From NCBI GenBank assembly GCA_021296255.1, contig JAGWAU010000029.1, positions 1 to 37,605 of the forward strand: a DNA stretch of 37,605 nucleotides, read 5' to 3'. The stretch comes from Alphaproteobacteria bacterium. Its GTDB lineage: Bacteria; Pseudomonadota; Alphaproteobacteria; UBA2966. Positions 20,927 through 37,605 of this stretch are shown piece after piece. Position 1 is the stretch's first letter, and every line of letters starts with the position of its first letter. The notes under the pieces were generated by a model. It was not told the DNA's origin. It ran no database searches and was given only the letters and a program-made list of their open reading frames with translations. The position numbers and the translations under genes are program-made.

Positions 20927-21705
20927 GTCGAGTTTCCTTCCAGTCCAAGCATTTCGGCGGCGAATTTCGGGTAAGGATCGGCGATGGCCGCCGCGATCTC
21001 GCCACGTATGAGGGCGAGGCGCGACTCGTCGGGCACCGGCGTCTCCGGGATGGCAGTCGAAGCTTCCGGCACGTCGAAATCGAATCCCGTGTTGTCCCGC
21101 ACCTCTTCCACCGTATGCCCCGGATGTACCGAGTCCAGCCGGAAACGCCGCCGCTCCCGGTCAAAGGCGAAGAGGCAGATGTTGGTGATCAACGCGTACG
21201 GGCCGCCCGGACGATAGACGTTGTCCACGCTCGTTCCCGGGGCCGAGATGAAGTCGACCCGCTCGACCATAGTTCGCCGCGTGTGCTCCAGGCGAAACAG
21301 GATCACTCGCGGCACGAGATAGTAGAGGTAGGCGGAACCGAATGAGCCGGACCAGCGCACCTTCTGCCGCGGGTAGTCGCCCACGCCGACCAGGTTGATG
21401 TTGCCGGCGCCGTCGATCTGGCCGCCGCTCAGGAAAAACGCATCGATCCGGCCCTGCGCCGCGAGGTCGAAGATCTCGACCCCGCCGTCGGTGAAGTCCT
21501 GAAGGCTGCGGGAACCCAGCACCGAGACGCGCATGTCGCCGCCGGACAAGTGCCGGGCCAGCAGGGCTCCGGAACCGGGGATGGGCGAGGAGGCGCCGAC
21601 GGCGACGTGGCGGGACCCTTCCAGCAGATCCGCGATACGGCCGATCAGCAACTCTTCGAGGCGGTACCGAGGAGTCACCGCCGCGTCCCGGAGGGTGCCG
21701 CTCAC
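20923..21705 (-). CDS. Gct/IpdB-like CoA-transferase family, beta subunit
   Basis: A 260-residue protein of the glutaconate CoA-transferase subunit B type, with VAVGASSPIPGSGALLA, LSGGQIDGAGNINLVGVG and the late LDSVHPGHTVEEVRDNTGFDF. I cannot find the canonical catalytic Glu in the expected early position (the segment reads ASSPIPGSGA). That is also the case in IpdB, where the IpdAB pair is not a transferase but a hydrolase that opens a ring on a CoA ester. Which activity applies here is unresolved. It overlaps the alpha subunit gene upstream and the CaiB-type gene downstream by 4 bp each. Confidence 0.85.
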   Translation of the reverse strand: MSGTLRDAAVTPRYRLEELLIGRIADLLEGSRHVAVGASSPIPGSGALLARHLSGGDMRVSVLGSRSLQDFTDGGVEIFDLAAQGRIDAFFLSGGQIDGAGNINLVGVGDYPRQKVRWSGSFGSAYLYYLVPRVILFRLEHTRRTMVERVDFISAPGTSVDNVYRPGGPYALITNICLFAFDRERRRFRLDSVHPGHTVEEVRDNTGFDFDVPEASTAIPETPVPDESRLALIRGEIAAAIADPYPKFAAEMLGLEGNST

Positions 21706-22529
21706 TCCGCCGCGGCTTTACGATCGAAGACGAACCTGTCGAGATACTCGGCGAAGCCGGCCTCGTCGCGCGCCATGTCGGCATATTGCGCGAGGTGTTC
21801 GTCGTCTGTGTCATAGGCACCGGGGAGGCCGAGGGGGCGAGCCCCGTCCCGCGCCTCGGCGACGGCCGATACGTAGATACCGGGAATGACGCCCGGGCGC
21901 AGCGCCGCGTCGTCGACCAGACTCCCATCGAAGATCGACTCCGCGGTGGCCAAGGTCTCGCGGGCAGCGTGGGCCATCAACATCATCTCACGCGCATCCC
22001 CGACGTAAAGGTTGCCCTGCCGGTCGGTGCGCCGCACGTGGATCAGGGCCAGGTCCGGAACGATGGCCGGCAGGCAGACGATGGGATCGTCCTCGCCAAA
22101 GGGGTTGTCGATAAGCTTCCAGTCCGTCCGATGTCTGGCGAGGTCGGACCCTACCAGGCCGCGCAAGGGCATGAAGGGAAGCCCCTTTTCCCCCGCCTGC
22201 AGCCCGGCATATACGGCGGGGCACGTCGCATCGAGCAGTCGCAAGCTGCCGGCACGTACGGCGCGTCCGAAGGCCGGCGCCTGACCGAATTCGTCCAACG
22301 TGACCGCGGAGGTCTCAAGGGCATCGACGCAACCGGCGCCGATGAGGAGATCGACGGCGAGGCCACCGGTCGGCACGCAAACCAGATGGAGGCCGCGCGC
22401 GCCACGGCGTATCAACGCCCGCACCAATGCCATCGGCGGGCCGCTCGCGCTCTTGACCAGCGCGATCCTGGCGCCGTCAGGGACGCGCGCCGCCAGCGCC
22501 TCGATATCGGTGATGACTTGGACGGGCAT
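21702..22529 (-). CDS. Gct/IpdA-like CoA-transferase family, alpha subunit
   Basis: A 275-residue partner of the preceding subunit. It shows GARIALVKSASGPPMALVRAL near the N-terminus, HLVCVPTGGLAVDLLIGAG, and LALIHVRRTDRQGNLYVGDA, typical of GctA/IpdA. Together the two would form an (alpha-beta)2 enzyme acting on acyl-CoA esters. I use ATG 22529 (MPVQVITDIEALAARV), where similarity begins; a GTG at 22574 is in frame upstream. It is the first gene of the minus-strand group GctA-GctB-CaiB-TauD, all overlapping or closely spaced, which reads as one catabolic operon. Confidence 0.85.
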   Translation of the reverse strand: MPVQVITDIEALAARVPDGARIALVKSASGPPMALVRALIRRGARGLHLVCVPTGGLAVDLLIGAGCVDALETSAVTLDEFGQAPAFGRAVRAGSLRLLDATCPAVYAGLQAGEKGLPFMPLRGLVGSDLARHRTDWKLIDNPFGEDDPIVCLPAIVPDLALIHVRRTDRQGNLYVGDAREMMLMAHAARETLATAESIFDGSLVDDAALRPGVIPGIYVSAVAEARDGARPLGLPGAYDTDDEHLAQYADMARDEAGFAEYLDRFVFDRKAAAE

Positions 22530-22644
22530 GTTGCGGAGTCTAGCCGAGATCGTTCCCAGCGTTAACGATGGCACCTTCGATGCCCGCGCGCCAATATGTT
22601 CACGATGAAATTCGGGCCAAGCACCCTTGCGGAGAGAGTGGGGA

Positions 22645-23253
22645 ATGAAGCTCTACTACTACGACACGCAGAATCCCTGGCGAGCCTGCGCCGTCGCCAA
22701 GTACCTGGACTTCAAAGCGGATTACATCCACGTGGACGTGGGCAAGGGTGAGCACCGCAGCCCCGAATTCCTCGCCGTCAACCCGAACGGCAAGGTGCCG
22801 GCGCTCGTGGACGGCGACGTGAAGATGTGGGAGTCGGTGGCGATCATGGCCTACCTGTCGGACAAGGCGGGCTCCGACCTCTGGCCCAAGGACGAACGCC
22901 AGATCGAGATCATGCGCTGGCTGGTCTGGGACGCGGCCCAGTTCACGCGCTGGGGCAGTATTCTTCATTTCGAGAACCGCATTCGGAAGCGGTTCGACCT
23001 GGGCGACCCCGATCCCGCCACGGTCGAAGAGGCGTTGGGCAACTGGAAGCGATTCGCCGCGGTGCTGGATGCGCACCTCAAGGGCCGGACCTACATCGTC
23101 GCGGACACCCTCAGCATCGCCGACTTCGCCGTCGCCTGCCTGCTCCCTCTGGCAGAGGTCTCGAAGTTACCGCTGGATGACTATCCCGAGCTCCGGCGTT
23201 TTCACGACAACCTGATGGAGATTCCCGCCTGGCGGCGACCGTTCCCGGAGTAG
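22645..23253 (+). CDS. glutathione S-transferase
   Basis: A 202-residue GST. The thioredoxin-like N-terminal domain is MKLYYYDTQNPWRACAVAKY, with NPNGKVPALVD including the cis-Pro and then the WES gamma-glutamyl contact. The helical C-terminal domain has IADFAVACLLP, the N-capping/hydrophobic staple motif. It conjugates or reduces compounds with glutathione, or opens or isomerises a ring; no family-specific assignment is possible. ATG 22645 follows GGAGAGAGTGGGGA. It is transcribed divergently from the CoA-transferase operon and converges on the dehydrogenase gene 18 bp further on. Confidence 0.9.
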   Translation: MKLYYYDTQNPWRACAVAKYLDFKADYIHVDVGKGEHRSPEFLAVNPNGKVPALVDGDVKMWESVAIMAYLSDKAGSDLWPKDERQIEIMRWLVWDAAQFTRWGSILHFENRIRKRFDLGDPDPATVEEALGNWKRFAAVLDAHLKGRTYIVADTLSIADFAVACLLPLAEVSKLPLDDYPELRRFHDNLMEIPAWRRPFPE

Positions 23254-23271
23254 CGGGGCGCCCGGCCGCCT

Positions 23272-24171
23272 TCATGCCTTCATCAAGCCCGGGTCCTCCG
23301 TGAGCACGATGCCGGCGCGGTCGAGATCGCCGTGGCCCGCCGCCATGCCCCTCTCGTACCAACTCAGAGCGGCGCGTCCCATGTCGGAGGGCGAACCCAA
23401 CTCGCCAGCCATCTCCACGGCCAGCGCCACGTCCTTGCGGGCGAGCGATATCTTGAAGCGCGGCGAGAAATCGCCGGCCAGGGCCTTGCCGATGAGGCCG
23501 TTGCGCAACTGCCAGGAGTCCGCGGCCGAACTCGGCAGCAGTCGCGTCATGAGCTCGATATCGGCGCCGGCGCGCCTGGCCAACGCATAGCCCTCCGCCA
23601 CGACCGCCATAGTGGTCGAAGAGACCATGTTATTGACGAGCTTGATGGCCTGCCCCGCGCCGAGAGGCCCGCAATAGTGGACGTCGCTCCCCAGCAGCGA
23701 CAGCAATCCGCGCACCGCGTCGCAGTCCTCGGGCTCACCGCCCATCAGGACGAACAGGTCGCCGGTCTCCGCCTCCGCCGGGCCGCGTCCCACCGGCGCG
23801 TCGATGATGCGGATGCCCTTCTCCGCCAGCGGTTCCGACAGCCGCTTCACCACCGACATGCCGTCCGTTGCCATGTCGACGAGGAGACTGCCTTCGGCCA
23901 TCCCTTCGATCAGCCCGTCTTCTCCGAGCGTAACCGTCTCGAGAATTTGGGGGCTCGGCAACATCGCGATGACCACGTCGCCGGCGGCACCCAGTTCCTT
24001 CGGGCTCGCCGCGACCTTGGCGCCGGCGTCGGCCGCCGCCTGCACCGCCGTTGCGTCGACGTCATGGACGGTGAGGTCGACGCCGCCCCCGAGCAGGCGG
24101 CGAATCATGCGGCTGCCCATGAGGCCAAGCCCGATAAAGCCGACGCGCGGCGACGCTACGTCCTGTGCCAT
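23272..24171 (-). CDS. beta-hydroxyacid dehydrogenase (3-hydroxyisobutyrate dehydrogenase family)
   Basis: A 299-residue NAD(P) enzyme of the HIBADH/tartronate-semialdehyde-reductase family. It has the dinucleotide motif FIGLGLMGSRM (GLGLMG at 14-19), the substrate motif DAPVGRGPAEAETGDL, and the catalytic lysine K177 in GAGQAIKLVNNM. The second motif usually reads DAPVSGG; here Ser is replaced (VGRG), which may shift substrate preference. It oxidises a beta-hydroxy acid to the semialdehyde or the reverse. The gene for a DUF2306 membrane protein begins upstream on the same strand and ends 22 bp before it. Confidence 0.9.
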   Translation of the reverse strand: MAQDVASPRVGFIGLGLMGSRMIRRLLGGGVDLTVHDVDATAVQAAADAGAKVAASPKELGAAGDVVIAMLPSPQILETVTLGEDGLIEGMAEGSLLVDMATDGMSVVKRLSEPLAEKGIRIIDAPVGRGPAEAETGDLFVLMGGEPEDCDAVRGLLSLLGSDVHYCGPLGAGQAIKLVNNMVSSTTMAVVAEGYALARRAGADIELMTRLLPSSAADSWQLRNGLIGKALAGDFSPRFKISLARKDVALAVEMAGELGSPSDMGRAALSWYERGMAAGHGDLDRAGIVLTEDPGLMKA

Positions 24172-24193
24172 GTGTTTATCTCTCCTGGTCGAT

Positions 24194-24562
24194 TCATCCG
24201 AACAACAGCTCCGACAGCAACCGGTCGGGTGAAAGGGCGATTGCTCCGGCTATGACGAGACCGCTGAAGGTTCCGATCATCCAGCCGGCGTGATTGCGAA
24301 CCTTGCCGCGCCTGATGGCCAGGACTCCCATGGTCACGGCGAACAAAGTCCATACGGAAAGCAGATGAATGATGCTGAAGCCCGCCCCTTCGCGGATCTG
24401 GAAAATCCAAAAGGACACGATAGACGTGATCACGATCAACCCCACCCAGGTCCGGCCGAACGCCTTGTGCATGGGCGTACCCTTGGGTCTCAGAAGCACG
24501 AAGGAACCGAATCCCAAGGCCGCCAAAGCGGTGATGAGGTGGATCGCGATGGGGATGGTCAT
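24194..24562 (-). CDS. DUF2306 family membrane protein
   Basis: A 122-residue protein with four hydrophobic segments (about residues 5-23, 38-55, 62-82 and 97-113). Conserved-looking His residues lie in MHKAFGRTW, SIIHLLS and RNHAGWM, a pattern seen in small DUF2306 membrane proteins that may bind haem or metal, although no function is established. It is located upstream of, and probably co-transcribed with, the beta-hydroxyacid dehydrogenase, and is divergent from the quinone oxidoreductase gene across a 113-bp gap. Confidence 0.75.
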   Translation of the reverse strand: MTIPIAIHLITALAALGFGSFVLLRPKGTPMHKAFGRTWVGLIVITSIVSFWIFQIREGAGFSIIHLLSVWTLFAVTMGVLAIRRGKVRNHAGWMIGTFSGLVIAGAIALSPDRLLSELLFG

Positions 24563-24675
24563 GACCGCGGGGCACTATACACGCTGAACGGGATGAAACC
24601 TTTTCTCGCCGGGCCCGGTAGTGGACACTGGCCTTCCAGCCATCCTTCGCAATTGACGGGAAGAGGTTTCGAGAC

Positions 24676-25671
24676 ATGAAAGCGGTGGAAATCGACGCCT
24701 TCGGCGGAATCGACGTGCTCCAGATCCGGGACGTGCCCGAGCCCGAGCCGGCGGAGAACGAGGTCGTCGTGAAGCTGTCCTATGCCGGGGTCAACTACAC
24801 GGACATCTATCGCCGGAACGGCGATTACGCCCGATCCCCGACCTATCCGACACCGCTCCCGGCGCGCATCGGAGTCGATGGTGCGGGCACCGTGAGCGCG
24901 GTCGGAAATGCGGTGTCTGACATGGCCGTCGGCGACCGCGTGGCTTTCACCCGCATCCAGGGAAGCTACGCCGAATACGCCGCCGTGCCCGACGCCGTGG
25001 TCATGCCGGTGCCCGGTGAATTGGCACTGGACGTGGCGGCGGCCCTGATCACGCAAGGCACGACAGCTCACTATCTCGCCACGTCTGCCTGGCCACTGGA
25101 GGCCGGAAACACCTGCCTCGTTCATGCCGGTGCCGGCGGTGTAGGACAGCTCCTGATCCAGATCGCCAAGATCAGGGGCGCGCGGGTGCTGGCCACGGTG
25201 GGATCGGCGGAAAAAGCCGAGATCGCAGCGTCAAGAGGCGCCGACACGACCATCCTCTACCGCGAGGTGGATTTTCGGGAAGCCGTGATGGATGCGACCA
25301 ACGGCAGGGGTGTGGATGTGGTCTACGACTCCGTCGGCAAAGCAACGTTCCATGATTCCATTCGCTGCCTGCGCCCGCGCGGACTCTGCGTCCTGTTCGG
25401 CCACGCCTCAGGCAAGGTCGACAGCCTCGACCCCTTGGATCTGTCCGAAGCCGGGTCGGTCTTCTTTACCCGCCCGCACATGGCGCACTACATCCAGACG
25501 CGGGACGAACTCGCCGATCGCTGGCGGGATCTCGCCGGCTGGGCGCTCGATGGCCGTCTCGCCGTGGCCGTCGACCGCGTCTTGCCGCTCGACCGGGCGG
25601 GCGAGGCCCACCAAGTCATGGAAGCCCGCGAGTCCCGCGGCAAGCTCCTGTTGGAAGTCGGTGGGGGCTAG
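24676..25671 (+). CDS. zinc-free MDR oxidoreductase, NADPH:quinone reductase-like
   Basis: A 331-residue medium-chain dehydrogenase/reductase of the quinone oxidoreductase (QOR) type. Signatures are AGVNYTDIYRRNGDY, GVDGAGTV, and the NADPH motif VHAGAGGVGQLLIQIAK (AGAGGVG at 151-157); the zinc-binding Cys residues of alcohol dehydrogenases are absent. QOR enzymes reduce quinones or the C=C bond of enones. A good GGGAAGAGG lies upstream of ATG 24676. It is a single gene flanked by a divergent and a convergent neighbour. Confidence 0.92.
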   Translation: MKAVEIDAFGGIDVLQIRDVPEPEPAENEVVVKLSYAGVNYTDIYRRNGDYARSPTYPTPLPARIGVDGAGTVSAVGNAVSDMAVGDRVAFTRIQGSYAEYAAVPDAVVMPVPGELALDVAAALITQGTTAHYLATSAWPLEAGNTCLVHAGAGGVGQLLIQIAKIRGARVLATVGSAEKAEIAASRGADTTILYREVDFREAVMDATNGRGVDVVYDSVGKATFHDSIRCLRPRGLCVLFGHASGKVDSLDPLDLSEAGSVFFTRPHMAHYIQTRDELADRWRDLAGWALDGRLAVAVDRVLPLDRAGEAHQVMEARESRGKLLLEVGGG

Positions 25672-25706
25672 ATAGAGCCGTTCAAGCCGGCCCTGAACCG
25701 CCAAGA

Positions 25707-26555
25707 TCAATCGTCCGCCACCAGCTCCTGACGCTGAGTACCCAGACCTTCCACGCCGAGCTCCATCACGTCGCCGGGCTTGAGGAACTTGGGTGGCTTG
25801 AAGCCCGCACCGACACCCGGCGGCGTGCCCGTCGACACGATATCGCCGGTCTGCAACGACATCATGGTGCTGAGATAGCTCAACAGATGTTTCATGCCAT
25901 AGACCATCTTGTCGGTGTTGCCGTCCTGCCGGGTCTCACCGTTGACTTTCGTCCAGAGACCGAGCTTCTGGGGATCGGCGATCTCATCGCGCGACACGAG
26001 CCAGGGACCGATGGGTGCGAAGGTGTCGCAGGACTTTCCCTTGGTCCACTGGCCGGCACGGTGGAGCTGGAACTCGCGCTCGCTGACGTCGTTGCAGATG
26101 CAGTAGCCGGCGACGTGGTCGAGGGCATTGGCCTCGTCCACATACTTGCCCGGCGTGCCGACGACGGCGGCGAGTTCGACCTCGTAGTCGGTTTTCTCGG
26201 AACCGCGGGGGATGACGACCGGATCGTTGGGACCGCTGATCGCGCTCGTGGCCTTCATGAACAGCACGGGCTCGGGCGGCACGTCGAGCCCCGACTCCGC
26301 CGCATGGTCGGAATAGTTGAGGCCGATGGCCATGATCTTGCCGACGCCAGCCACGGGTGGACCCAACCGCAGGCTTCCGTCGACCCGGGGCAGAGAGACG
26401 GGATCGAGCGCCTCAAGCCTTGCCATGCCTTCCGGGAGCAGGACATCGCCCGCGATGTCGTCGACTTCCCCGGAAAGATCGCGGATGCCGCCATCCGCAT
26501 CGACCAAGCCGGGTTTTTCCTGTCCCGCGGGACCATAGCGAACCAGTTTGACCAT
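25707..26555 (-). CDS. fumarylacetoacetate hydrolase (FAH)-family enzyme
   Basis: A 282-residue FAH-domain protein. The metal site is visible as E125 and E127 in DYEVELAAVVG and D156 in ICNDVSER, with IMAIGLNYSDHAAE leading in and GKSCDTFAPIGPWL and TGTPPGVG after. Members cleave C-C bonds of 1,3-diketo compounds, hydrate 2-oxopentenoates, or decarboxylate oxaloacetate using Mg or Mn. This is the standard length for stand-alone catabolic FAH enzymes. ATG 26555 follows AGGAGG. It is the last gene of the long minus-strand run that starts with the Sec protein, and would fit a late ring-fission or side-chain-cleavage step. Confidence 0.92.
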   Translation of the reverse strand: MVKLVRYGPAGQEKPGLVDADGGIRDLSGEVDDIAGDVLLPEGMARLEALDPVSLPRVDGSLRLGPPVAGVGKIMAIGLNYSDHAAESGLDVPPEPVLFMKATSAISGPNDPVVIPRGSEKTDYEVELAAVVGTPGKYVDEANALDHVAGYCICNDVSEREFQLHRAGQWTKGKSCDTFAPIGPWLVSRDEIADPQKLGLWTKVNGETRQDGNTDKMVYGMKHLLSYLSTMMSLQTGDIVSTGTPPGVGAGFKPPKFLKPGDVMELGVEGLGTQRQELVADD

Positions 26556-26582
26556 AGTTCCTCCTGTGCGTTTGCGGGCGTG

Positions 26583-27461
26583 CTAGCCGCCGCCCTCTCC
26601 CACGGTCGCCCGCTCCACCGCGAGCCACCGCTCGATACCGATCGTCTCGTGAATCTGGTCGAGTTCCGATGCTTGGCTGTCCGAACCCAGGATCGGATCC
26701 GGCTCCCCGCGGGCGATCGCCTCGTACGATAACCGCAACGCCTTGTGCATGGCGAGCAGCGACGTCATCGGGTCGACCAGAAATCGGTATCCGAGTCCAT
26801 GGAGATCCTCCCGGCTCATCCCCAAGTTCGCGAGTCCATCCCGCAAGGGCATCATCATCAAGGGCGGCGGCAGGCGCTCCCCGACGAATCGCAGGTCGTC
26901 CGGCGTCGGTGCCAACACGAACAGCATGTCCGAGCCGGCTTCCTTGTAGGCCTCGGCCCTCCGCACGGCGTCATCCCGTTGATTCTTCCGGATCTGGTTG
27001 GTGCGCCCAATGATGACGAAGTCGGAATCCCGCCGCGCAGCAACGGCTTCGCGGATCTTGGAGACCATCAGGTCCCGTGGGATGGGATGCTCGATGCCGA
27101 TGTGGTGATGCACCCGTTTGGGCATCAACTGGTCCTCGATCTCGATCCCGGCCAGCCCCGCGGCCTCGCACATGGCGATCGTACGATGGAGGTGTACCGG
27201 ATCGCCCCAGCCGCACGTCCCGTCGAGGACCAACGGCAGAGGACAGGCGCTGCGGATATCGAGTGCGAGCTGGACGAACTCGGTGAGGGTCAATGCGGCC
27301 TCGGTGAATCCGTTGACGTAGCCCGCCGCTCCGCCGCCGAGATAGATGGCCTTGAAACCCGCCCGCTCCGCGAGCTTCGCCGCGAGCGGATTCATCACCT
27401 GCGGCGCGAGCAGAGGCTCGGGACCCCCCAACAAATCGCGGAATGCGCGTGCGGGCGTCAT
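26583..27461 (-). CDS. isocitrate lyase/PEP mutase superfamily protein, atypical active site
   Basis: A 292-residue TIM-barrel protein of the ICL/PEPM superfamily with LLAPQVMNPLAAKLAERAGF, GIEIEDQLMPKR and FVIIGRTNQ. Two active-site motifs deviate. The metal motif usually ending D.D.GYG reads LDGTCGWGDP (79-88), and the KKCGH/PKRCGH motif of lyases reads PKRVHHH (114-120), so the catalytic Cys is missing. It is therefore unlikely to be an isocitrate or methylisocitrate lyase; a decarboxylase, hydrolase or mutase-type reaction on a 2-oxo acid is more likely. The start ATG at 27461 overlaps the stop of the upstream 124-residue gene (ATGA). Confidence 0.85.
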   Translation of the reverse strand: MTPARAFRDLLGGPEPLLAPQVMNPLAAKLAERAGFKAIYLGGGAAGYVNGFTEAALTLTEFVQLALDIRSACPLPLVLDGTCGWGDPVHLHRTIAMCEAAGLAGIEIEDQLMPKRVHHHIGIEHPIPRDLMVSKIREAVAARRDSDFVIIGRTNQIRKNQRDDAVRRAEAYKEAGSDMLFVLAPTPDDLRFVGERLPPPLMMMPLRDGLANLGMSREDLHGLGYRFLVDPMTSLLAMHKALRLSYEAIARGEPDPILGSDSQASELDQIHETIGIERWLAVERATVGEGGG

Positions 27462-27832
27462 GGATCCGTCCGGTCGCGGGCCGCGGGCAAGATCGCCGGC
27501 CGCCGGCTGACCTCGCCGAACCCGAAACGCTCCGCGGGGAAGGCGTCCTCGATATCCGTAGTCGCCCAGTTCAAATCGATGGGATGGGCCGTCTCCACGA
27601 ACGTGATAAGCATATGGAACAGTGTCCGCGCGTCGTCCGGAAGATCGCCGAGATCCAGGGCGTTGAGGTAGTCGGCGATCTCCCCCGCCCGCGGCACCAC
27701 GGCGTCGTAGAACTCGCGCAGCGTCTCGATGGACGTGGCCGTCAGTTTCACGAAACGGTCGCGCTCGTTTTCGAGCGCCCACTCCTCCACGAACGGCTCG
27801 AGCTCGGCGAATTCGGACGGCAGTCTGCTCAC
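27458..27832 (-). CDS. small protein of unknown function coupled to the Rieske oxygenase
   Basis: A 124-residue soluble, acidic protein that I do not recognise. The central part has LREFYDAVVPRAGEIADYLNAL and MLITFVETAHPIDLNWATTD, which suggests an all-helical fold. No motif or membrane segment is evident. It overlaps the Rieske gene (GTGA at 27832-27829) and the PEPM-like gene (ATGA), so the three are translated together. This placement, and a size similar to small oxygenase partner subunits, suggests a stoichiometric partner of the oxygenase, but that is inference only. Confidence 0.75.
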   Translation of the reverse strand: MSRLPSEFAELEPFVEEWALENERDRFVKLTATSIETLREFYDAVVPRAGEIADYLNALDLGDLPDDARTLFHMLITFVETAHPIDLNWATTDIEDAFPAERFGFGEVSRRPAILPAARDRTDP

Positions 27833-29034
27833 GGGCGTGCGATCAGCTCATCGACCGCGGCGTAGTGCTTCCTGAGCAGCATCTCCTGCTTCGACAGGTA
27901 GATGTTTTCCATGACGCCGGATTTGAGCTGCCGTGTAATCGCTTCGATCACCGCGACGTCCTCACGGAACACCTCGCGAAGACGGGTGCGGAAATAGGTC
28001 TGGCACATGTGATCATCCACGGTTTCCGGCTCGTAGACGAACATCTCCGCTCGCACGAACGTCTTGTCCACGTCGATCGGCCAGAACCACACGAGCGAAT
28101 GCCAGTGCGCGCTGCACACCAGCATGATGTTGGGAAACACCTCGCCGACGTCGTGCAGCCAATTCTCGATCCGCAGGGCGTTGACGCCCGATGGCAGATC
28201 GAGCTCCACGGCGGCGTTGGGCGGGAACGTGGGATACATCTTGCGTCCGCGCTGGTAGGCGATGCCTTCGACCTTGGTGGGTTTGTGGTTGGGATTGCCT
28301 TCGACCGAGTAGCGGCCGTGGTAGTTGGTAACTTCCATGTACGGCCGGTGACGGTCCGGGTTGCCGGAGCCGCCCTGGTAGTCGGGCACCGTCGCCTTGT
28401 GGACGAACAGCGCGTGGTATCCCTCCGTGAAGGAGTTGATGGCGACGTTCCAGTTGGCGTCGACCGTGATCTCGTGAGTCGCGATCTTCCGCCGGCCGTT
28501 GAAGAAACCGCGATACTGGCCGTACATGGAGCCGAGCCACTCCTCCAGGGTCTCGCGTGGCTCTTTGTCGAAATTGACGAAGATGAAGTCCTCCCAGACT
28601 TCACAATGGACGGACAGAAGGCCGAGCGTCGCCTCGTCGATGTCCGTGAATTGACCGCGGTCGGTGATGCCGGCAAGCCGACCGTCGTTGTGGTAGCTCC
28701 AGCCGTGGAAACCACACACGAACGCCCGTGCCTGCCCACGACCTTCCGGGACCAACTTGTTGGCGCGATGACGGCACATGTTGTGGAAGGCGCGGACCTT
28801 TCCGTCCCCGCCTCTGGCGATGATCAAAGAGGTTTTGAGGGGCGGGATCTCCCGGCAGAGGTAATCGTTCTTCTCCGGGATATCGGAATCGCAGGCCACC
28901 AGGAGCCAGCCGCGCCGGAAAATCCTGTCCACTTCCCGCTGGAAAAACTCGGGCTGCATACGCTGGAGCATGTTGACGCAGCCGCCGAGGCCGCTGGTGT
29001 CGCCAACGAATCTGGTGGTGGTGACCTCCGTCAT
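27829..29034 (-). CDS. Rieske non-haem iron ring-hydroxylating oxygenase, large subunit
   Basis: A 401-residue oxygenase alpha subunit. The Rieske [2Fe-2S] ligands are C87 and H89 (NMCRHRANKL) and C107 and H110 (FVCGFHGWSY). The mononuclear iron site lies in AINSFTEGYHALFVH with H207 and H212, and the bridging acid in the conserved E204 region; the third iron ligand would be in the C-terminal part (DVAVIEAI). Such enzymes oxygenate or demethylate aromatic or alicyclic substrates and need a reductase and often a ferredoxin, neither of which is encoded in this window. ATG 29034 has GAGGAGGG upstream. It follows the D-amidohydrolase gene by 84 bp on the same strand. Confidence 0.93.
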   Translation of the reverse strand: MTEVTTTRFVGDTSGLGGCVNMLQRMQPEFFQREVDRIFRRGWLLVACDSDIPEKNDYLCREIPPLKTSLIIARGGDGKVRAFHNMCRHRANKLVPEGRGQARAFVCGFHGWSYHNDGRLAGITDRGQFTDIDEATLGLLSVHCEVWEDFIFVNFDKEPRETLEEWLGSMYGQYRGFFNGRRKIATHEITVDANWNVAINSFTEGYHALFVHKATVPDYQGGSGNPDRHRPYMEVTNYHGRYSVEGNPNHKPTKVEGIAYQRGRKMYPTFPPNAAVELDLPSGVNALRIENWLHDVGEVFPNIMLVCSAHWHSLVWFWPIDVDKTFVRAEMFVYEPETVDDHMCQTYFRTRLREVFREDVAVIEAITRQLKSGVMENIYLSKQEMLLRKHYAAVDELIARP

Positions 29035-29118
29035 TCCACGGCCCTCCTCAACTCGCCCCACGATAACGGGCCGGCCAGAGCTTGTCGCGACGCCCCCGGC
29101 CCTGCAGACCTTCCCGCA

Positions 29119-30804
29119 TCACGCGGCCGCGAACTCCCGCAGAACATGCCCCGGGCGAGCGCCGTCCGTGCAATAAGCGGTCCCATCCCAGACACGGGTG
29201 CCGTTCACCCAAACGCCGTGAACACCGATTGGATCACGCACCAGGCGGCTGGCGCCACCCGGAAGATCGAACGCGCGACGGGGTTTCGAGATGCCGACGG
29301 TGGCGGGATCGAACAGGAAAAGATCGGCGAAATCTCCCTCCCGCACGCGTCCTCGGCCGACGATGCCGTAATGGTCTGCCTGATCGCTCGTAAGCTGCCG
29401 GATCGCGTCTTCGAGAGTCAGGCTCTCCTTCTCGCGCACCCAACGCGACAGCAGGTAAAGCCCGTATCCGGCGTCGCACAGGAACGAGAGATGTGCCCCG
29501 GCATCCGAGAGCGCGAGGACGCTCGCCGGGTGCTTGATCATCTCCTCGACAGCCTCTTCGTCGAAGTTCTGCACCTGGGCGACGAAAACCGTCTTGAGGC
29601 CTTCCTCCAGCGCCAGGTCAAAGAAGAAATCGATTGCATCCACCCCTTTCCGGCCGGCGACGGATCCGATCGTTTCGCCTTCGAGGCCACGATTGCCGCA
29701 GGAAGACGCTTCGGCAACTTGCACACGCGACCAGTCGCCATAGAAGATCTTCTGCGGTTTGGGAGCGACAAGCCCGGCCCGGAAGTCCTCGCGGAATGAT
29801 GGATCGGCAATGGCCTTGGCGATCTTCTCGCTGCCTGCGCCCACCAGCGGATGCCAGGCATCGTGGCTGCCCATCAGATAAGCGTTCTCGAGGGTGAACT
29901 CCATGCTGACAGGCTGACCCGTCACCTGAGCGAACACCCGGTGGCCGCGTTCCCGTGCTTCCGAGGCTTGGTCAAGCATGTTTCGCGCACGGTCGGGAAT
30001 GGCGGGAATGTGCAGGAGCGCCGACCAGAACACGGGGCGTTTGGTCATGTCCGCCCATCTCTCCATATCGGGTACCTGGATGTCGGGGCCGCTGGCGATC
30101 TGGAAGACTCCGTGATCCGCTTCCGCGAGGGTGCCGACGAGGATGTCCCATTCCTCGCGGGTGGCGAGCCGCGACGGCATGGGCAGCCCATCGTCTCCGA
30201 AATGGTTGTGGGAATCGGACGACGCAAAACCGATGGCGCCTGCATCCAGCGCTTCTGCCACCAGGGACCGCATGGTCTCGATCTCGTCATCCCGTGCTTC
30301 GCGCAGCGACGCCTCTTCGCCCATGACGTAGGTCCGCGTCACCGAGTGGCCGGCGAGGACGGCCATGTTTGGCACGATGCCGACGCGCTCCAGCATGTCG
30401 AGGTATTCCGGGAAGGATTCGTACTCCCAACGGATGCCTGCGCGCAGCGCCTCGATCGGCATGCCTTCCACCTGCGAGAGGTTGCGGGCGACGAGATCGC
30501 GGTGCTCGGGCCTGCACGGTGCGATGCCGAAGCCGCAGTTGCCGGAAACGACCGTCGTCACGCCGAGAGACGTCGACGGCGAAGCGATCGGATCCCAGGT
30601 GATCTGGGCATCGTAATGGGTGTGAATGTCGACGAAGCCAGGCGCCAGCACGAGACCATCGGCATCGACCGTCCGCGCCGCCGCCTCGCCTTTGAGGTCA
30701 CCCATCGCCACGACCTGACCGTCGGCGACCGCCACGTCCGTATGCCGCAGCGGCGCACCCGTGCCGTCTGCCACTTCCGCGCCCGTGATGAGAAGATCGT
30801 GCAT
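29119..30804 (-). CDS. N-acyl-D-amino-acid deacylase-type amidohydrolase
   Basis: A 561-residue amidohydrolase-superfamily protein. The metal site starts with GFVDIHTHYDAQ (H61, H63), followed by SGNCGFGIAP, the DAGAIGFASSDSHNHFG region and LALSDAGAHLSF, all typical of the D-aminoacylase subgroup. The family hydrolyses N-acyl-D-amino acids or other amides with one or two zinc ions. Near the C-terminus EGDFADLFLFDPATVG returns to the small beta domain. Substrate is unknown; in this run of catabolic genes it may cleave an amide or lactam intermediate. The SDR gene ends 10 bp before its ATG. Confidence 0.9.
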   Translation of the reverse strand: MHDLLITGAEVADGTGAPLRHTDVAVADGQVVAMGDLKGEAAARTVDADGLVLAPGFVDIHTHYDAQITWDPIASPSTSLGVTTVVSGNCGFGIAPCRPEHRDLVARNLSQVEGMPIEALRAGIRWEYESFPEYLDMLERVGIVPNMAVLAGHSVTRTYVMGEEASLREARDDEIETMRSLVAEALDAGAIGFASSDSHNHFGDDGLPMPSRLATREEWDILVGTLAEADHGVFQIASGPDIQVPDMERWADMTKRPVFWSALLHIPAIPDRARNMLDQASEARERGHRVFAQVTGQPVSMEFTLENAYLMGSHDAWHPLVGAGSEKIAKAIADPSFREDFRAGLVAPKPQKIFYGDWSRVQVAEASSCGNRGLEGETIGSVAGRKGVDAIDFFFDLALEEGLKTVFVAQVQNFDEEAVEEMIKHPASVLALSDAGAHLSFLCDAGYGLYLLSRWVREKESLTLEDAIRQLTSDQADHYGIVGRGRVREGDFADLFLFDPATVGISKPRRAFDLPGGASRLVRDPIGVHGVWVNGTRVWDGTAYCTDGARPGHVLREFAAA

Positions 30805-30814
30805 CGTCAGTCCC

Positions 30815-31561
30815 CTAGGCGGCGCAGCGCCCTCCGTCGACGGGCAGGAGCACGCCCGTCAGAAATGACGCGTCATCCGAGGCAAGAAAGACGGCGGCGC
30901 GTGCGACGTCCATGGGCTCACCGAGGCGCCTCATGGGAACCGTTGCCTCGAAGGCAGCGATCTTGTCCCGGTCGCCGCCGAGGAAGGTATCGAGCATGGG
31001 CGTGTCCGTGGCGACAGGGCACAGCGCGTTGACGCGAATGTCCGGGGCCAGTTCCTGCGCCATGGTCAGCGTCAGGTTGGCGACCGCTCCCTTGCTCGCG
31101 TTATACCAGGTGAGTCCCGGCCGCGGCCGGGCCGCCGCCGTCGACGCCGTATGGATGATCGCACTGCCGGACGTCATCCGGGGAATCCCGTGGATGGAGG
31201 TGAAGTAGATGCTCTTCACGTTCACGTCGAAGATGCGATCGAAGGTTTCCTCGTCCGTCTCCGTGAGCGGCTGATTCCACTGGGGCACGCCGGCGTTGTT
31301 GATGAGCACGTCGAAGCCGCCGTAGGCGTCCATGACGGCGTCGAACATGCCTTTCACGTCGTCGCCGTCCGCGACGTCCGCCCTGTGGAACATCGCCTCG
31401 CCGCCGGCCTTTCCGATGTCGTCAACCACCGACTGGCCGGTATTGTCGTTGAGGTCGTTGACCACGACGCGGGCGCCTTCCCTGGCAAATTCGGTCGCCA
31501 TCGCCGCCCCGAACCCGGAGCCGGCCCCGGTGATGATCGCGGTCTTCCCCTCGAGGCGCAT
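30815..31561 (-). CDS. short-chain dehydrogenase/reductase (SDR)
   Basis: A 248-residue classical SDR. It has TGAGSGFG (11-18) for NAD(P), NNAG at 88-91, and the catalytic S140, Y153 and K157 (YNASK), ending with VLLPVDGG. D35 after the second strand favours NAD. It oxidises an alcohol to a ketone or the reverse. The ATG at 31561 is 20 bp after the thioesterase stop, and the D-amidohydrolase gene follows at once. If the first gene of the run forms or moves a hydroxyl group, this enzyme is an obvious candidate for its oxidation. Confidence 0.92.
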   Translation of the reverse strand: MRLEGKTAIITGAGSGFGAAMATEFAREGARVVVNDLNDNTGQSVVDDIGKAGGEAMFHRADVADGDDVKGMFDAVMDAYGGFDVLINNAGVPQWNQPLTETDEETFDRIFDVNVKSIYFTSIHGIPRMTSGSAIIHTASTAAARPRPGLTWYNASKGAVANLTLTMAQELAPDIRVNALCPVATDTPMLDTFLGGDRDKIAAFEATVPMRRLGEPMDVARAAVFLASDDASFLTGVLLPVDGGRCAA

Positions 31562-31580
31562 CGCCGATCCTCCTCGTTCG

Positions 31581-32033
31581 CTAACCCGCCTGGTCGGCGC
31601 GGTCGATCAGGCCCTCACCGAAGCTGACCTTCTGCCACAATCCCTGGGCCGTGAGAACCGTCTTGTCCCCCGACGTCAGAACGCCGCGGGCCCAGACCAC
31701 CCTGCCGCCCTCGCGCGTGATCTCCGACAGTCCTTCGACCCATTCGCCCAGCTTGACCGAGCTCATGAAACTGATGTTGAGGTTCACGGTCACCGCCTCG
31801 ATGCCCGCCCGGATGAGGGACGTAGTGATCAACTGATCGGTAAACGTGCACAACATGCCGCCCTGAACCAGCCCGACCTGATTGATGTGCTTTTCCAGAG
31901 CCCGAAAGGCCCGGATGAAACCGCCATCCGACAGGTCCTTGTGATAGTACGGCCCGACCAGCTCGCCGAACGGACCGGGATGGTAGTAGGCCTCGAAACC
32001 GGGCGGGATGTCGTCCTCGGCAACTTTGGTCAC
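31581..32033 (-). CDS. hotdog-fold thioesterase (PaaI-like)
   Basis: A 150-residue single hotdog-domain protein. The helix motif is NQVGLVQGGMLCTFTDQLI, which matches the PaaI pattern 'G.V.GG....L.D', and is followed by VTVNLNISFMSSVKLGEWVE and ARGVLTSGDKTVLTAQGLWQ. It would hydrolyse an acyl-CoA thioester in the cytoplasm. It sits 12 bp downstream of the metallophosphoesterase gene and is co-directional with the whole run, which suggests that an intermediate of the pathway is a CoA ester. Confidence 0.85.
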   Translation of the reverse strand: MTKVAEDDIPPGFEAYYHPGPFGELVGPYYHKDLSDGGFIRAFRALEKHINQVGLVQGGMLCTFTDQLITTSLIRAGIEAVTVNLNISFMSSVKLGEWVEGLSEITREGGRVVWARGVLTSGDKTVLTAQGLWQKVSFGEGLIDRADQAG

Positions 32034-32045
32034 GCCGGCTTCCTC

Positions 32046-34139
32046 TTAGCGATGCGCGATCAGGAGGGAGGGAACGGCGCAAGTCACGGCGGGCTCCAGC
32101 GCCGCACGGTCACCGTCCTTCCGCCAGACGCACGAGGTAATCTCGCCGGTCTCCAGGTTCACCCAATTGCCGGCGCCGCTGTCCGCGTAACAGGCGTGCC
32201 GACCGACCACGGCGCCCACGTCCATATCGCCTTCCGGCAACAACAGGAACAGCCGGAGCTGGTCCTCCGCCCCGTGCAGCATGGCCACCCGGCCACCCGC
32301 GGTCTCGGCGATGTCCAACGCCGTCATCTCGCCACCGACCGCCTTCAGGACGCCATGGATGTGGCGGACCATCCGGGCGGCGAGGCGCGGGTTGAACAGG
32401 CGGTCGATCAGGCCGTTGCGCATGAAGTAGCCGCGGTCCTGGTCGACGAGGGTATCCAGGAACACGGCCAAGCGGTCCGCCGCGAGCGCCGCGGCCGTCG
32501 CCTCGGCGGCGCGACAGGCCGTGGCCAGGTCGTCCATCTGGCCGCCCCGCATGTCGTCGGCCGCGAAGCGGACGTTGACCATGGCCCGATTGCCCTGGGC
32601 CGCCGCAAACTCCTGCGCCTCGCGAATGCCGGACCAAGCGGACACGCTGCGGTCGACCCGGAACACGACGCCGTCGATGAGTTCACCGGCGCCGATCGAG
32701 GCCACGAATCGGGCGACGTGTCCGCGTTCCTCGATGGGGAAGCCGCTCGAGATCATGTGCTTGAAGGTACCGCCCTCGTGGGCCGATTGCGCCAGCGAGT
32801 GGAGCGCAGACAGATAGATCGGCGCGTCCGCCTTGGCCTTGATGTCGCGGAGGGTCGCGACGGCCGCCTCCGCCTCGTCCTCCGGCACGATGAACTCGAG
32901 GGCGTCGTAAGCATCCCGGCAATCGGCGAGCGCGGCGACGGTCTTCGGTCCCGGCACACCGTAAGTGAATACGGTGAACTCGTGACCGACGGACTTGAGG
33001 TCGCGCATCCGCCGCAGCGACGCCGGGTCGATCAGGTCTCCCACCGGCGTCCGAAGCTTCTTCACGCCCATCTCCCACAAGGCCAGCAGCGGATAATCGT
33101 TGCGGACCTGCTTGCGCATGAATTCATCGAGCGCGTAGTTGTGCGGAATGGTCGTCACCTCGCTCCAGGGGTGGCGTAGCTGGACGCCCACCGACGCCGG
33201 CGCATCGTCTCGACTGTCGACGGCCGGCAACGTGGGAGGCACCTCCGGAAGTTCCTCTCCTTCCGCCAGCATGCGGCCGTAGCTGCGGATGTTGTGCGCG
33301 ATGTGACCGTGCTCGTAGACCTCGACCACGAAATAGCCGAGCTTGGGCCCGTCGTTGCGGCCGCCATCCAGCGAGGGCTCGGGCCGCGAGCGCGCGAACT
33401 CCGCGTAATCCTGGCGGACGAACGAGACCGAAGGCAGGACGTAATGTTCCGTCGCGCCCTGGCGGTTGTAGAAGAAGTTGTGCACGTGGCCCGCGAAGAC
33501 CGCCTCGATTTCGTGCTTCTCGATCAGACCCAGAAGCCAGCTCCGTGCCGGTTCGTCGATGTTGTCGTAGTGGGTCTCTTCTTCCGGGTCGGTGACGTAC
33601 GGCGGATAGTGCGTGAAGAGGAAAATCCGTTCGCAATCGGTCTCGGCCAGGTCCTTCTCCAGCCAGGCCCGCTGCTCGGCCTCGAGATCGAGGCCGGAAT
33701 TCATGACCGGCGAATTGATCAGCACGAAGTGAACGCCCTTGTGGTCGAAGGAGCCGTAATGCGGGCCGAACAGCTCCTCGTAGGTCTTCAGGAAAGCGTC
33801 GTTCACCTGTACGGCCGGCATCCAGGAGATCTTCTTGTCGCCGCAGTCGTGGTTGCCCGGCGTGATGTGCAGGGGTGGCTTGACGCGCTCGTAGAGCCTG
33901 TTGAAATCCTCCGCGACCTGCCCGAACGTCGGGTGACCCGGCACCGGATGCACGAGGTCGCCCATGTGGATGACGAAGTCGGGCTCGAGCCGGTTGACTT
34001 CTTCGATCACGTAGCGGGAGCGCGCGTTCGCCATCGCGTTGGTCTCGAACGGCGAGGAATTCTCGTCACCCGGATTCATATGGGAGTCCGCGATCAGCGC
34101 GAACGTGAACAAAGGCGATTCGCCGTAAGCGATGGTCAT
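32046..34139 (-). CDS. two-domain protein: calcineurin-like metallophosphoesterase plus C-terminal barrel-like domain
   Basis: A 697-residue protein. The first 300 residues are a calcineurin-like phosphoesterase with the full set of metal motifs: D18 and H20 (ALIADSH), GD at 60-61, GNHD at 95-98, H177 (FTHYPP) and GHVH at 217-220. The remaining 400 residues are different. They start near YALDEFMRKQVRNDYPL and show repeated beta-alpha units (VKKLRTPVGDL, HEFTVFTYGVPG, YDALEFIVPED, DAPIYLSALHSL, DGVVFRVD) resembling a TIM barrel, then a short beta-rich end. I do not recognise this part. No signal peptide is present. ATG 34139 has AGGGAGG five bases upstream. The gene directly follows the Sec protein (96 bp). 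Confidence 0.85.
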   Translation of the reverse strand: MTIAYGESPLFTFALIADSHMNPGDENSSPFETNAMANARSRYVIEEVNRLEPDFVIHMGDLVHPVPGHPTFGQVAEDFNRLYERVKPPLHITPGNHDCGDKKISWMPAVQVNDAFLKTYEELFGPHYGSFDHKGVHFVLINSPVMNSGLDLEAEQRAWLEKDLAETDCERIFLFTHYPPYVTDPEEETHYDNIDEPARSWLLGLIEKHEIEAVFAGHVHNFFYNRQGATEHYVLPSVSFVRQDYAEFARSRPEPSLDGGRNDGPKLGYFVVEVYEHGHIAHNIRSYGRMLAEGEELPEVPPTLPAVDSRDDAPASVGVQLRHPWSEVTTIPHNYALDEFMRKQVRNDYPLLALWEMGVKKLRTPVGDLIDPASLRRMRDLKSVGHEFTVFTYGVPGPKTVAALADCRDAYDALEFIVPEDEAEAAVATLRDIKAKADAPIYLSALHSLAQSAHEGGTFKHMISSGFPIEERGHVARFVASIGAGELIDGVVFRVDRSVSAWSGIREAQEFAAAQGNRAMVNVRFAADDMRGGQMDDLATACRAAEATAAALAADRLAVFLDTLVDQDRGYFMRNGLIDRLFNPRLAARMVRHIHGVLKAVGGEMTALDIAETAGGRVAMLHGAEDQLRLFLLLPEGDMDVGAVVGRHACYADSGAGNWVNLETGEITSCVWRKDGDRAALEPAVTCAVPSLLIAHR

Positions 34140-34235
34140 TAGAGCCTCCCTGATCAATCCCGCCCGCGAACGGAGCGGAGCATTGGCGACCTCGCCGCCA
34201 GAGCGGTTGCAGTCAACCTGGAACCGCTCTCTGAA

Positions 34236-35753
34236 TCAATGCATCCGCACCACGAAGGTGTGCTCGCCTACCGTGGTCGAGACCTCGATATCACCGTGGA
34301 CGGCGCGCCAGTCGTCCGACACGACTCCGTCGGCGACGACGGTGCAGTTGTCCGGGTGAACGTTGGTGATACGGAACGAGGTGGGTTCGCCCGCGGCACC
34401 CGGCGCGCCCTTGTCCGTGGCGACGATCAGACACCTTCGGTCGACGTCGTAAACGGCCTGAGACAGGCATACCTTGGGGAAGTCCACGCCGGTTACCGTG
34501 GGCTCCACGAACTTGCGCAGGTTGGGCTCCCCTAACAGACGTCCCCAGGCCCCTTCCGTCACGGTCTCGGCCAGGGCGGCAATGGCGTTGAACTGCCCCC
34601 TCGGATGAGGCTCGTTCAATCCAAAACCCCACCAGAATTCGCCGGAGGCGTCATCCCAAGTCGGCTCGAAATGCTCTTCCGCATAGGCCTTCAGTTTGCC
34701 GTAGAGCCCCTCGTCACCGTATTCGCGGGCGTAGATCATTCCGTAGATCACCTCACGCGGGTTGCCGCCGGGGGTCTCTATCGGCGCCCCCTCGCGCCAG
34801 CCGAGCTGGTCGAACGCGGCCTCCGCGAGAACGCGCGCGTCGTCGGGCCTCGAAGCCTGGATGAGCTGCGCAATCCCGAACTTCTGGAAGGCTTCGTGAT
34901 CGCCCGGCATGTGGATGCCGAGAATCGGGTCGTAGTACATCGATATCGAGCCCACGACCTCGCCGCCGTGAATGGGGATGTAGTGCTCCTTCGCGTACTC
35001 CCACCAGTTCTGGAAGACGCGGTTGTAGTCGCTGCCGTAGAGGGTGTCGTGGAGCCTCAGACCGAGGCCCGCGGCGGACATTCACAATGGCCAGATCTTG
35101 GTGTTTTCGCAGTGGCACCCTTCCGGACGGCCGGCCCATTGGTTGGCCAGGAATTCCGCGATCCGAGAATGCGTCCAGGTAAACGTGTTATCCCCGTCGC
35201 GCACCATGTCGAACGGCTCGTTCCACTTCTCATCGCCGGTGACGTAGAGATGCAGACCCAGATTGACGAGAAAGAAGCCCCGGAAGAAGAGATTGCCGTC
35301 GGATTCGATGGGGTCCATCTGCAGACCCCACGGCTCGACGCCGTTGGCGGTCCAACCGGGCACGTCGTACTTGCCCCGGAGTGTCGGCGGGATCAGCGTT
35401 TCGTACCATTCCTCCGGATACTGCTCGCGCCGGGGGTCGTCGCCGATCTGATCGAGCCAGTCCTTCGCGGCCCAATAGCCGGTGAACCGCGCGACGAGCT
35501 CATCGAGGATCGTGCCGTAGACTTCGCGCCACGCCGGCGTGATGTCCGCCATGATGGCGACGGGCTGCGCCGAGTCCTGGAGGTCGAAGCGGTGCCAGGA
35601 GCGCCGGGGCTCGCCCGAGACGCCGTCCCAATGGGGGTGCGGTTGGCTGTCCTTGTCCCAACTGTCCGGGGTGGTCGCCTTGCGATACATGTAGCGCAAC
35701 CAGCCGCGCGAGCGGTCGGTCGTCGCCTCATAGCCGCGAACAGTGCTCGGCAT
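34236..35753 (-). CDS. probable selenoprotein: linalool dehydratase/isomerase (LinD)-like, in-frame TGA = Sec224
   Basis: Read through TGA 35084-35082, the frame gives 505 residues: 223, then Sec, then 281. The middle aligns with LinD: DPIESDGNLFFRGF with DPIEKENIMYKGH, VTGDEKW with VTGSRRY, CENTKIWPL-U with CEPDNYFVQ-C, and LHDTLYGSDY with VYDRLHGTDY. C215 and the TGA are nine residues apart, as are the two active-site cysteines of LinD (C171, C180 by memory). The LinD His corresponding to F160 is missing, so the substrate probably differs. There is no signal peptide, unlike LinD, and a C-terminal beta-rich domain (from about residue 420) is added. ATG 35753 has AAGGAGG eight bases upstream. 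Conventional callers would split this into 35753-35082 and 35081-34236. A split gene with reinitiation at the ATG after the TGA is the alternative. Confidence 0.82.
35052..35070 (-). promoter_or_regulatory. SECIS-like hairpin downstream of the in-frame TGA
   Basis: Counting the T of TGA as base 1 (35084), bases 15-21 (GGGCCTC) pair with bases 27-33 (GAGGCTC), including one G-U pair, around the loop GGUCU at bases 22-26. This fits bacterial SECIS rules as I know them: a stable stem, a short apical loop with an early G, and 16-37 bases between TGA and loop. The loop GGUCU at bases 22-26 is the same loop in the same register as in E. coli fdhF, where SelB reads its GU. The second copy of the gene has an equivalent hairpin. 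Confidence 0.78.
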
Positions 35754-35852
35754 CCGTCTTCCTCCTTGCTGCGCGGAATTTTATCGGGGCGGGAACGGGC
35801 ACTGCAACCGGCCGCGGTCTGGGGCGACATATGGGATTTTGTGTCAACAGGG

Positions 35853-36200: not shown

Positions 36201-37605
36201 ATGGCAGCGATGGTACGCGGCTACCCGGCAACATCGGATCGCTCGAGAGGCTGGCTCCGCTACCTCTATCGCAAGGCGACGACGCCGGAGCCCATTGGGA
36301 CAACGTCACCAACGAGCCCTTGGCGTCGTGGCACCGCATGGATCTGGTGAGAAGCAGCTTTGCGATTCCGCTGTTGGCTGACCGCACCCCGGCGTGGCGC
36401 GAAGTCTACGGCCGTATCCTGGACGAGTTGATCATCCGCTTTACCGGCTACTGGATGGCCAAGGACTGGCTCGATCAGATCGGCGACGACCCGAAGCGTG
36501 ATCAGTACCCGGAGGAATGGTACCGGGTGCTGATCCCGCCGTTCCTGCGCGGGAAATACGACGTGCCGGGTTGGACCGCCAACGGTGTCGAGCCGTGGGG
36601 CCTGTCATCAAAGGAGACTTCCTGATGGTGCTGGGTTTCCACCTCTATGTGACCGGAGACGAGAAGTGGAACAGGCCCTTTGACATGATTCGTAACGGCG
36701 CCGACACGTTCTCCTGGACCCACACGGGGATCGCCGAGTGCCTGTTCTCGCAGTTGGCCAAACGGCCGGAGGGGGTCCACTGCGAGAACACCAAGATCTG
36801 GCCCATGTGAATGGTCCGTGCGGGGCTCGGTCTGGGCCTCCACGATGCGCTCTACGGCAGCGATTTCCGTCCTGCCTTCGATGCTTTCTGGGACTATGCG
36901 AAACAGCACTACAACCGGATCCAGGACGGCAAGGTCGCCGGCTCGGTGACGATGTATTACGACCCGCTCGTGCCCTGTCACCATCCCATCGGCGACGCCC
37001 ACAACTTTTCGTTTGGCACTGCCCACGGTGTGATGCCGTTGTACCCTGATGACGCGCGTGTGCTTTACGACGACGCCGTCAATAAATTGAAGTGGCGCGA
37101 AAGTGCCTTCAGCGGATCTGATGACGAAAGCTCGGAAGATGGCGGGGACCCGATGGCGTCATTTGTCCTGCTCATGGGTCAGTTCCTGGCGCGCGAACTC
37201 GGTGACGAGGCCCTCCACGGCAAGCTCAAAATCCGTTCAGACGCCAACGATGAGCCAAACTGGGACCCCGAGACCGGCGAATTCACATGGCGGTTCGGGC
37301 TCGACGAACCACACCCAAGAGGTCAGATGAATGCAACCGCAGCATTGGCCGATGCGGCGGCGGCGGGTGCCTGGACCAATCTGATCCAGCGGCCCAATCA
37401 GCATAGATTTGTGGAGCCGACGGTCTATGGCGTCGATTTTCCCAAGGTCTGTCTATCGCAGGCCATCTATGACGTCGAGCGCCGTCTGCTGGCGGTCACG
37501 ACGGACGCCGGCGCGCCCAAAGCGGCGGGAGAACAGACGACATTCCGCATCACCAATGTCGATCCGGATCGCTGTACCATCGAGGCCGACGGCGTGATGT
37601 CGGAC
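36201..37605 (+). pseudogene. second LinD-like selenoprotein gene, frameshifted in its first half, runs off the window
   Basis: ATG 36201 (after GAGGGAAGACG) starts MAAMVRGYPATSDRSRGWLR, matching the first copy (MPSTVRGYEATTDRSRGWLR). Compared with that copy, 28 bases are missing near 36290 and 34 near 36604, each shifting the frame. The second loss removes DPIE and its surroundings. After 36604 the frame is continuous: HCENTKIWPM, TGA at 36808-36810 in the Sec position, then MVRAGLGLGLHDALYGSDF and onwards to 37605 without a stop, closely following the first copy (NEPHPRGQ/DEPHPRGQ, VDFPKVCLSQA). The late part also has an insert (FSGSDDESSEDGG). The damage makes a working product unlikely unless translation starts internally. 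Confidence 0.82.
36822..36840 (+). promoter_or_regulatory. SECIS-like hairpin in the second copy
   Basis: With T of TGA 36808 as base 1, bases 15-21 (GGGGCTC) pair with bases 27-33 (GGGCCTC) around the loop GGUCU at 22-26. Relative to the first copy, pair 18-30 has changed from C-G to G-C, and pair 20-28 from U-A to U-G, so the 7-bp stem is retained despite sequence change. The loop and its distance from TGA are unchanged. Confidence 0.72.

Follow-up and report, generated by a model that had tools for sequence, protein, structure and literature searches.

The Interrupted Gene and Its Relatives

The contig JAGWAU010000029.1 (assembly GCA_021296255.1) of an alphaproteobacterium from the UBA2966 lineage was analysed over its whole 37,605 nucleotides, referred to here as the window, and carries on the minus strand, at 34236–35753, a gene of the Ldi family (PF18566), to which the linalool dehydratase LinD belongs. 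The frame begins with an ATG 7 nt downstream of the sequence AAGGAGG (35761–35767, minus strand), a likely ribosome-binding site, encodes 505 residues, and ends with a TGA at 34236–34238, and its sole internal stop is another TGA, at 35082–35084 (minus strand), in the position of residue 224. This is one Ldi-family gene interrupted solely by that TGA, as had been described in an earlier note made from the sequence alone; the joined protein matches the Pfam model PF18566 with 52.6 bits (cut-off 26.1) over residues 145–369, spanning both sides of the TGA, and homologues and an AlphaFold2 (AF2) model agree with the joined frame. No NCBIfam 20.0 model matches the joined 505-residue protein, and no Rfam match at gathering scores is found anywhere in the window.

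In a phmmer alignment with LinD (7ad2), C215 of the window protein (codon 35109–35111, minus strand) falls on LinD C171 and residue 224 on LinD C180, gap-free between the two, so that the TGA takes the place of the second cysteine of the catalytic pair while the first is retained. This is the placement proposed in the earlier note, whose numbering of the pair likewise fits the PDB chains; the LinD numbers used here were counted from the printed alignment. The search for homologues of the joined protein that the note had recommended listed 120 proteins, and Cys stands at the residue-224 site in all 109 that are full-length, the other 11 being 281-aa pieces. Cys-form PF18566 homologues of about 500 residues (P0002–P0005, P0007, P0013, and others) share 44–62% identity with the window protein, are like it in length and architecture, and have both cysteines in place.

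The interruption recurs. The source genome (4.25 Mb, 136 contigs) has four Ldi copies, all interrupted in frame by a single TGA at this codon; one of them starts at a contig edge and another, a divergent second copy in the window (36204–37605, plus strand), has apparent frameshifts upstream of its TGA (36808–36810), which is followed by the same hairpin as that described below, and is cut by the window end. This second copy matches in three frames (36204–36323, 36242–36610, and 36595–37605) and is either a pseudogene or an assembly error. Moreover, the GTDB genome collection was scanned with the pattern CENTK[IV/MAT]WPx followed by TGA, which required TGA at that codon, and 57 stretches were retrieved from 52 other assemblies, including three in OY282368.1 and four in UBA2966. 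All but one of these could be parsed as in-frame relatives (56/57, 37–89% identical), and the remaining stretch, L048, whose motif contains an N, shows both motif and hairpin and was included in the tree; L035 stops 7 codons past the TGA and L056 starts 16 codons ahead of it. The hosts of these predicted selenocysteine (Sec) forms are Alphaproteobacteria including Defluviicoccus, Gammaproteobacteria, Acidimicrobiales/Acidimicrobiia, Ca. Microthrix, Chloroflexi, Ca. Entotheonella, Myxococcales, and UBP10. Two same-genus genomes hold 3 and 4 copies with TGA in every one, and their proteins are identical to the OY282368.1 and UBA2966 copies already counted, thus providing no additional evidence. 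Two short Ldi-like fragments on contigs C116 and C94 of genome G000 (L006, 1501–1611, E 6e-12; L007, 1501–1632, E 1e-11, containing a TAG) are probably remnants of additional copies. A viral origin was discarded, no relative being found in viral_contigs by protein or by the motif with TGA, TGC, or TGT, and so was a plasmid origin, with only three plasmid records matched, from Streptomyces and Rhodococcus, at 25–39% identity.

A quick tree was built from 142 of the 173 rows collected, after 31 Cys rows had been thinned out; 6 short loci had been dropped at an earlier stage. Three changes between Sec and Cys are needed in this tree, and the starred branches force three. The Cys forms P0002–P0005 and P0007 nest within a Sec clade of Alphaproteobacteria and Entotheonella and, therefore, Sec was likely lost in their lineage, as far as the sequences indicate. 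The family is rare: in counts that include the own or centre genome, it occurs in 5/191 relatives, in 1/398 genomes of the phylum (the source genome itself), in 5/385 genomes of the window's class (query P0002), and in 6/296 genomes from the class to which an Acidimicrobiales assembly belongs (Sec in 3, and one each with Cys, with Ser/His, and with a weak match).

The Predicted Downstream Hairpin and the Selenocysteine Machinery

A predicted hairpin of the selenocysteine insertion sequence (SECIS) type, with a 6-bp stem and the loop GGUCU, lies at 35053–35069 (minus strand), in columns 16–32 when the T of the TGA is column 1. It was obtained by RNAalifold, unaided, from an alignment of 59 sequences over the 51 nt from the TGA, comprising the 4 source-genome copies and 55/57 stretches, with L035 (too short) and L048 (unparsed) left out, in which columns 16–21 pair with 27–32 and the stem starts 12 nt after the TGA. 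Pairing is kept in 348/348 stem cells of the 58 distinct rows, whereas shuffles reach 93.4% and slid stems no more than 60.3%, and compensatory changes are seen at pair 18–30 (CG 38, UA 11, GC 8, UG 1) and pair 19–29 (CG 56, UA 2). The coding sequence tells the same story at synonymous sites: when the codons of 62 Sec genes (the 4 source-genome copies, the 57 stretches, and L115) are aligned, synonymous variation is zero in only 3 of the 73 columns that are conserved and degenerate, and these are the consecutive codons +6, +7, and +8 (CTC, GGT, and CTG), the next-lowest column entropy being 1.09 bits and the median 1.72 bits. GGT is used at +7 in 62/62 Sec genes, against 20% of the Gly codons elsewhere in those genes.

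The Cys forms differ in this region. Among the Cys forms that do not belong to the nested clade, 72/104 have Gln at position +9, as against 0/61 Sec forms, which is consistent with pairing of that codon in the hairpin. Five Cys-form genes whose DNA was read (L085, L097, L098, L112, and L123) could form 2–4 of the 6 pairs and have the loop GGUCU in none; L086 is identical to L085 there, L116, which has no Cys, was excluded, and L123 can fold an alternative hairpin of −5.0 kcal/mol. The window hairpin lies within the published limits for bacterial SECIS elements, with a 5-nt loop beginning with G, 6 bp, and a spacing of 18 nt (available text of PMC13188914), and has an energy of −11.7 kcal/mol (28 nt). 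Over 61 genes (20-nt pieces), the energy ranges from −12.3 to −7.1 kcal/mol, with a median of −10.5, the weakest falling short of the −7.5 limit. When the source genome was searched with the hairpin model R1, the four Ldi copies came first, followed by L108 at E 0.02 and three more at E 3.4–4.6; the TGA of L108 is out of frame with the local gene-like frame, and this match was taken as chance.

The machinery whose presence the earlier note had proposed to check is found in the source genome. Three genes adjoin on contig C64, selA (19262–20614, 574 bits), selB (20668–22554, 436 bits), and tRNA-Sec (22622–22712, 71.7 bits, anticodon UCA), and selD is on contig C65 (309 bits); a normal tRNA-Trp(CCA) is present alongside tRNA-Sec(UCA). 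A screen at curated cut-offs was extended to 49 other Sec-form assemblies, those of L040, L083, and L084 lying outside it, and selB was over the cut-off in 42, tRNA-Sec in 40, and at least one of the two in 45, compared with 2/14 and 5/14 control genomes over the cut-off. Most of the 40 tRNA-Sec matches (38) score at least 64 bits, with G047 (51.4) and G002 (49.8) weak. Five genomes with a non-Sec form were also inspected, and selA is present in four of them and not in G1065; thus, a lack of machinery does not by itself account for the Cys form. As a separate observation, a tRNA gene of G000 (L013 1497–1587, minus strand; C109:52869–52955) has a long variable arm and the anticodon CUA, is called tRNA-Pyl by ARAGORN and tRNA by Rfam (51.4 bits), and is possibly an amber suppressor tRNA.

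Probable Decoding of the TGA and the Likely Chemistry

From the comparative sequence evidence, it is almost certain that the TGA at 35082–35084 is decoded as selenocysteine (probability of about 0.97), and the whole explanation, in which a predicted enzyme of the Ldi family incorporates Sec under the direction of the predicted hairpin downstream, is very probable. Several observations weigh against it. The relatives from the pattern scan come from metagenome-assembled genomes throughout, and no match above the cut-off to either selB or tRNA-Sec was obtained in 4 of the 49 screened assemblies (G015, G038, G044, and G049). Moreover, two of five shuffle measures of the hairpin are unremarkable (both-side pair changes, 48/500; further pair types, 345/500), and the 51-nt stretch of the window folds no better than its shuffles (z 0.48) and has a different minimum-energy structure, so the case for the predicted hairpin is one of comparison and not of single-sequence stability. 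Finally, the homologue L116 (1501–2841; 40% identity) has Ser and His instead of the two catalytic cysteines, and selA is present in its assembly, which belongs to the class of G003.

The closest characterised system is LinD (Ldi) of Castellaniella defragrans (PDB 5g1u, 5hlr, and 5i3t), with 21% identity. The window protein has the fold of LinD, with a predicted Sec, which would be functionally equivalent, where LinD has its second catalytic Cys, C180, and with the first Cys kept; it also has an extra beta-rich stretch (residues 419–505 in the AF2 model) beyond the LinD match. LinD H129, which presumably has an active-site role, aligns with F160 of the window protein. The disulfide Cys48–Cys101 that caps the active site of LinD (PMC6600392, available text) has no counterpart, as no Cys occurs before residue 213. 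The 21% identity, the change from H129 to F160, and the missing disulfide count against a LinD-like activity; owing to the last two and the extra stretch, the protein is filed in PF18566 and not as a linalool dehydratase. The mechanism of LinD itself is disputed, with acid/base, covalent thioterpene, and Asp-started schemes under discussion (PMC6600392, available text).

In the proposed mechanism, SelB carrying Sec-tRNA would bind the hairpin and Sec would be inserted at residue 224. The Sec224 selenol and C215 would then occupy the places of the two reduced catalytic thiols of LinD, where Sec, which exceeds Cys in acidity and nucleophilicity, could serve as proton donor or acceptor or as a transient nucleophile while an alcohol or alkene is reversibly hydrated, dehydrated, or isomerised. 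A reaction of this hydration/dehydration or isomerisation type is cautiously favoured. Alternatively, Sec224 and C215 could form a redox couple (a selenenylsulfide) or protect against oxidation, without acting as acid/base or nucleophile, which seems unlikely. Most selenoproteins are indeed placed among redox proteins (PMC13188914, available text), and LinD is oxygen-sensitive and requires reduced thiols (PMC6600392, available text). However, the protein shares its fold and family with LinD, in which the two thiols work in (de)hydration and isomerisation, and C-x8-U is not among the usual UxxC/CxxU motifs of the PMC13188914 inventory.

The remaining explanations, which deny Sec altogether, were weighed and rejected. 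That the TGA is a genuine stop and that a second protein arises by re-initiation at the ATG at 35081, directly behind it, is very improbable. Gene callers do list such halves, the 281-aa pieces among the listed homologues being 11 of 120; nevertheless, no Shine–Dalgarno-like sequence stands ahead of that ATG, and the codon directly 3′ of the TGA starts with C in 44 of 59 aligned Sec genes, which makes an independent downstream gene, an outcome that the earlier note had named as damaging to its proposal, unlikely. The break would also fall within the fold, between the two catalytic residues of the AF2 model, and both the hairpin and the Cys of every listed full-length homologue would be left without explanation. 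A pseudogene or a sequencing error, with TGC or TGG misread as TGA, is hardly credible: one neighbouring copy is frameshifted, but recurrence of the TGA at this position, across four copies and 57 stretches from 52 assemblies, makes misreading untenable, and the hairpin constraint on synonymous sites points the same way. A changed genetic code, with TGA read as Trp or another residue, is just as incredible and had already been discounted in the note, on the ground that many other genes of the window normally end in TGA. Despite the in-frame TGA, this very gene is closed by a TGA, Cys and not Trp stands in the listed full-length homologues, and tRNA-Trp(CCA) is normal and accompanied by tRNA-Sec(UCA).

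The genes around the Sec-form gene offer limited guidance to its substrate. Pfam matches at 20923–34157 include a phosphoesterase, a short-chain dehydrogenase/reductase, an amidohydrolase, a Rieske oxygenase, a PEP-mutase, an FAA hydrolase, a zinc alcohol dehydrogenase, a 3-hydroxyisobutyrate-dehydrogenase, and two CoA-transferase proteins, which suggests the breakdown of an organic compound, with no substrate named by them. Four nearby open reading frames of the window (glutathione-transferase-like by eye, alcohol dehydrogenase, FAA hydrolase, and phosphoesterase) have counterparts 80–84% identical beside the gene in a same-genus genome; no common neighbour points to a function, the most widespread neighbour clusters occurring in just 8/60 loci.

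A Possible Second Site and the Place of the Family among Selenoproteins

The first catalytic cysteine may also be a site of Sec. The 223-residue N-terminal half, used as a query, matched 316 proteins within its length limits, and among the 120 of these that are listed, 89 stop at the 224 site (80 under the strict motif), 8 read through with Cys, 1 is unclassified, and 22 end directly before C215, the equivalent of LinD C171. These last are P0124, P0160, P0162, P0164–P0168, P0170–P0173, P0175, P0176, P0178–P0180, P0182, P0194, P0204, P0221, and P0222, of which P0124 is 89% identical to the window protein. A 112-row tree requires 6 changes to account for the C215 endings, of which no fewer than 4 fall on starred branches, and C-terminal pieces on contigs of the same size start at residue 237 (P0305, with P0162) and residue 232 (P0307, with P0204). 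A further pair of halves, P0164 and P0330, was dropped, as a 1230-base contig is too small for both to be complete. At the protein level, the 22 endings suggest a second Sec position, where a TGA would be expected; no DNA of this C215 type was present in the 127 loci examined or in viral_contigs. That Sec can stand at either of the two LinD-type catalytic cysteines, with the position switched several times and a role in hydration or isomerisation rather than redox, is given slightly better than even odds.

The earlier note had proposed a probable new selenoprotein family, and this proposal stands: Table 1 of PMC13188914 (2026), which covers 119 prokaryotic selenoprotein families or subfamilies, has no Ldi or PF18566 entry. 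In the literature searched, nothing joined linalool dehydratase to selenoprotein or selenocysteine, PF18566 to selenoprotein, or Acidimicrobi- names to both selenium terms, and co-mentions of selenoprotein and linalool, among the matches listed, concerned food, plant, nutrition, and health topics. A 2008 Global Ocean Sampling (GOS) study describes a "hypothetical protein GOS_A" with 2 TGA sequences and 155 Cys homologues and, in its available text, names no domain for it; the Ldi selenoprotein, which was not compared with GOS_A, is likely a new family. It shares with bacterial selenoproteins as a class (PMC13188914, available text) the Sec/Cys exchange at an active-site Cys, the SECIS-type hairpin within the coding sequence, and selABCD, and differs in having neither the fold nor the presumed chemistry of a thioredoxin-like oxidoreductase.

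If these readings are correct, a multi-phylum family, whose halves are stored as separate proteins in databases, would be added to the prokaryotic selenoproteome, with a fold and a likely chemistry, in which alcohols and alkenes would gain or lose water or be isomerised, that set it apart from the usual thiol-redox selenoproteins. Should the two-site reading also be true, Sec could occupy either of two interchangeable sites in this selenoenzyme family. With a natural Sec form, what the LinD thiol does could be tested directly; moreover, the family may be one reason why these uncultured lineages retain the Sec machinery.
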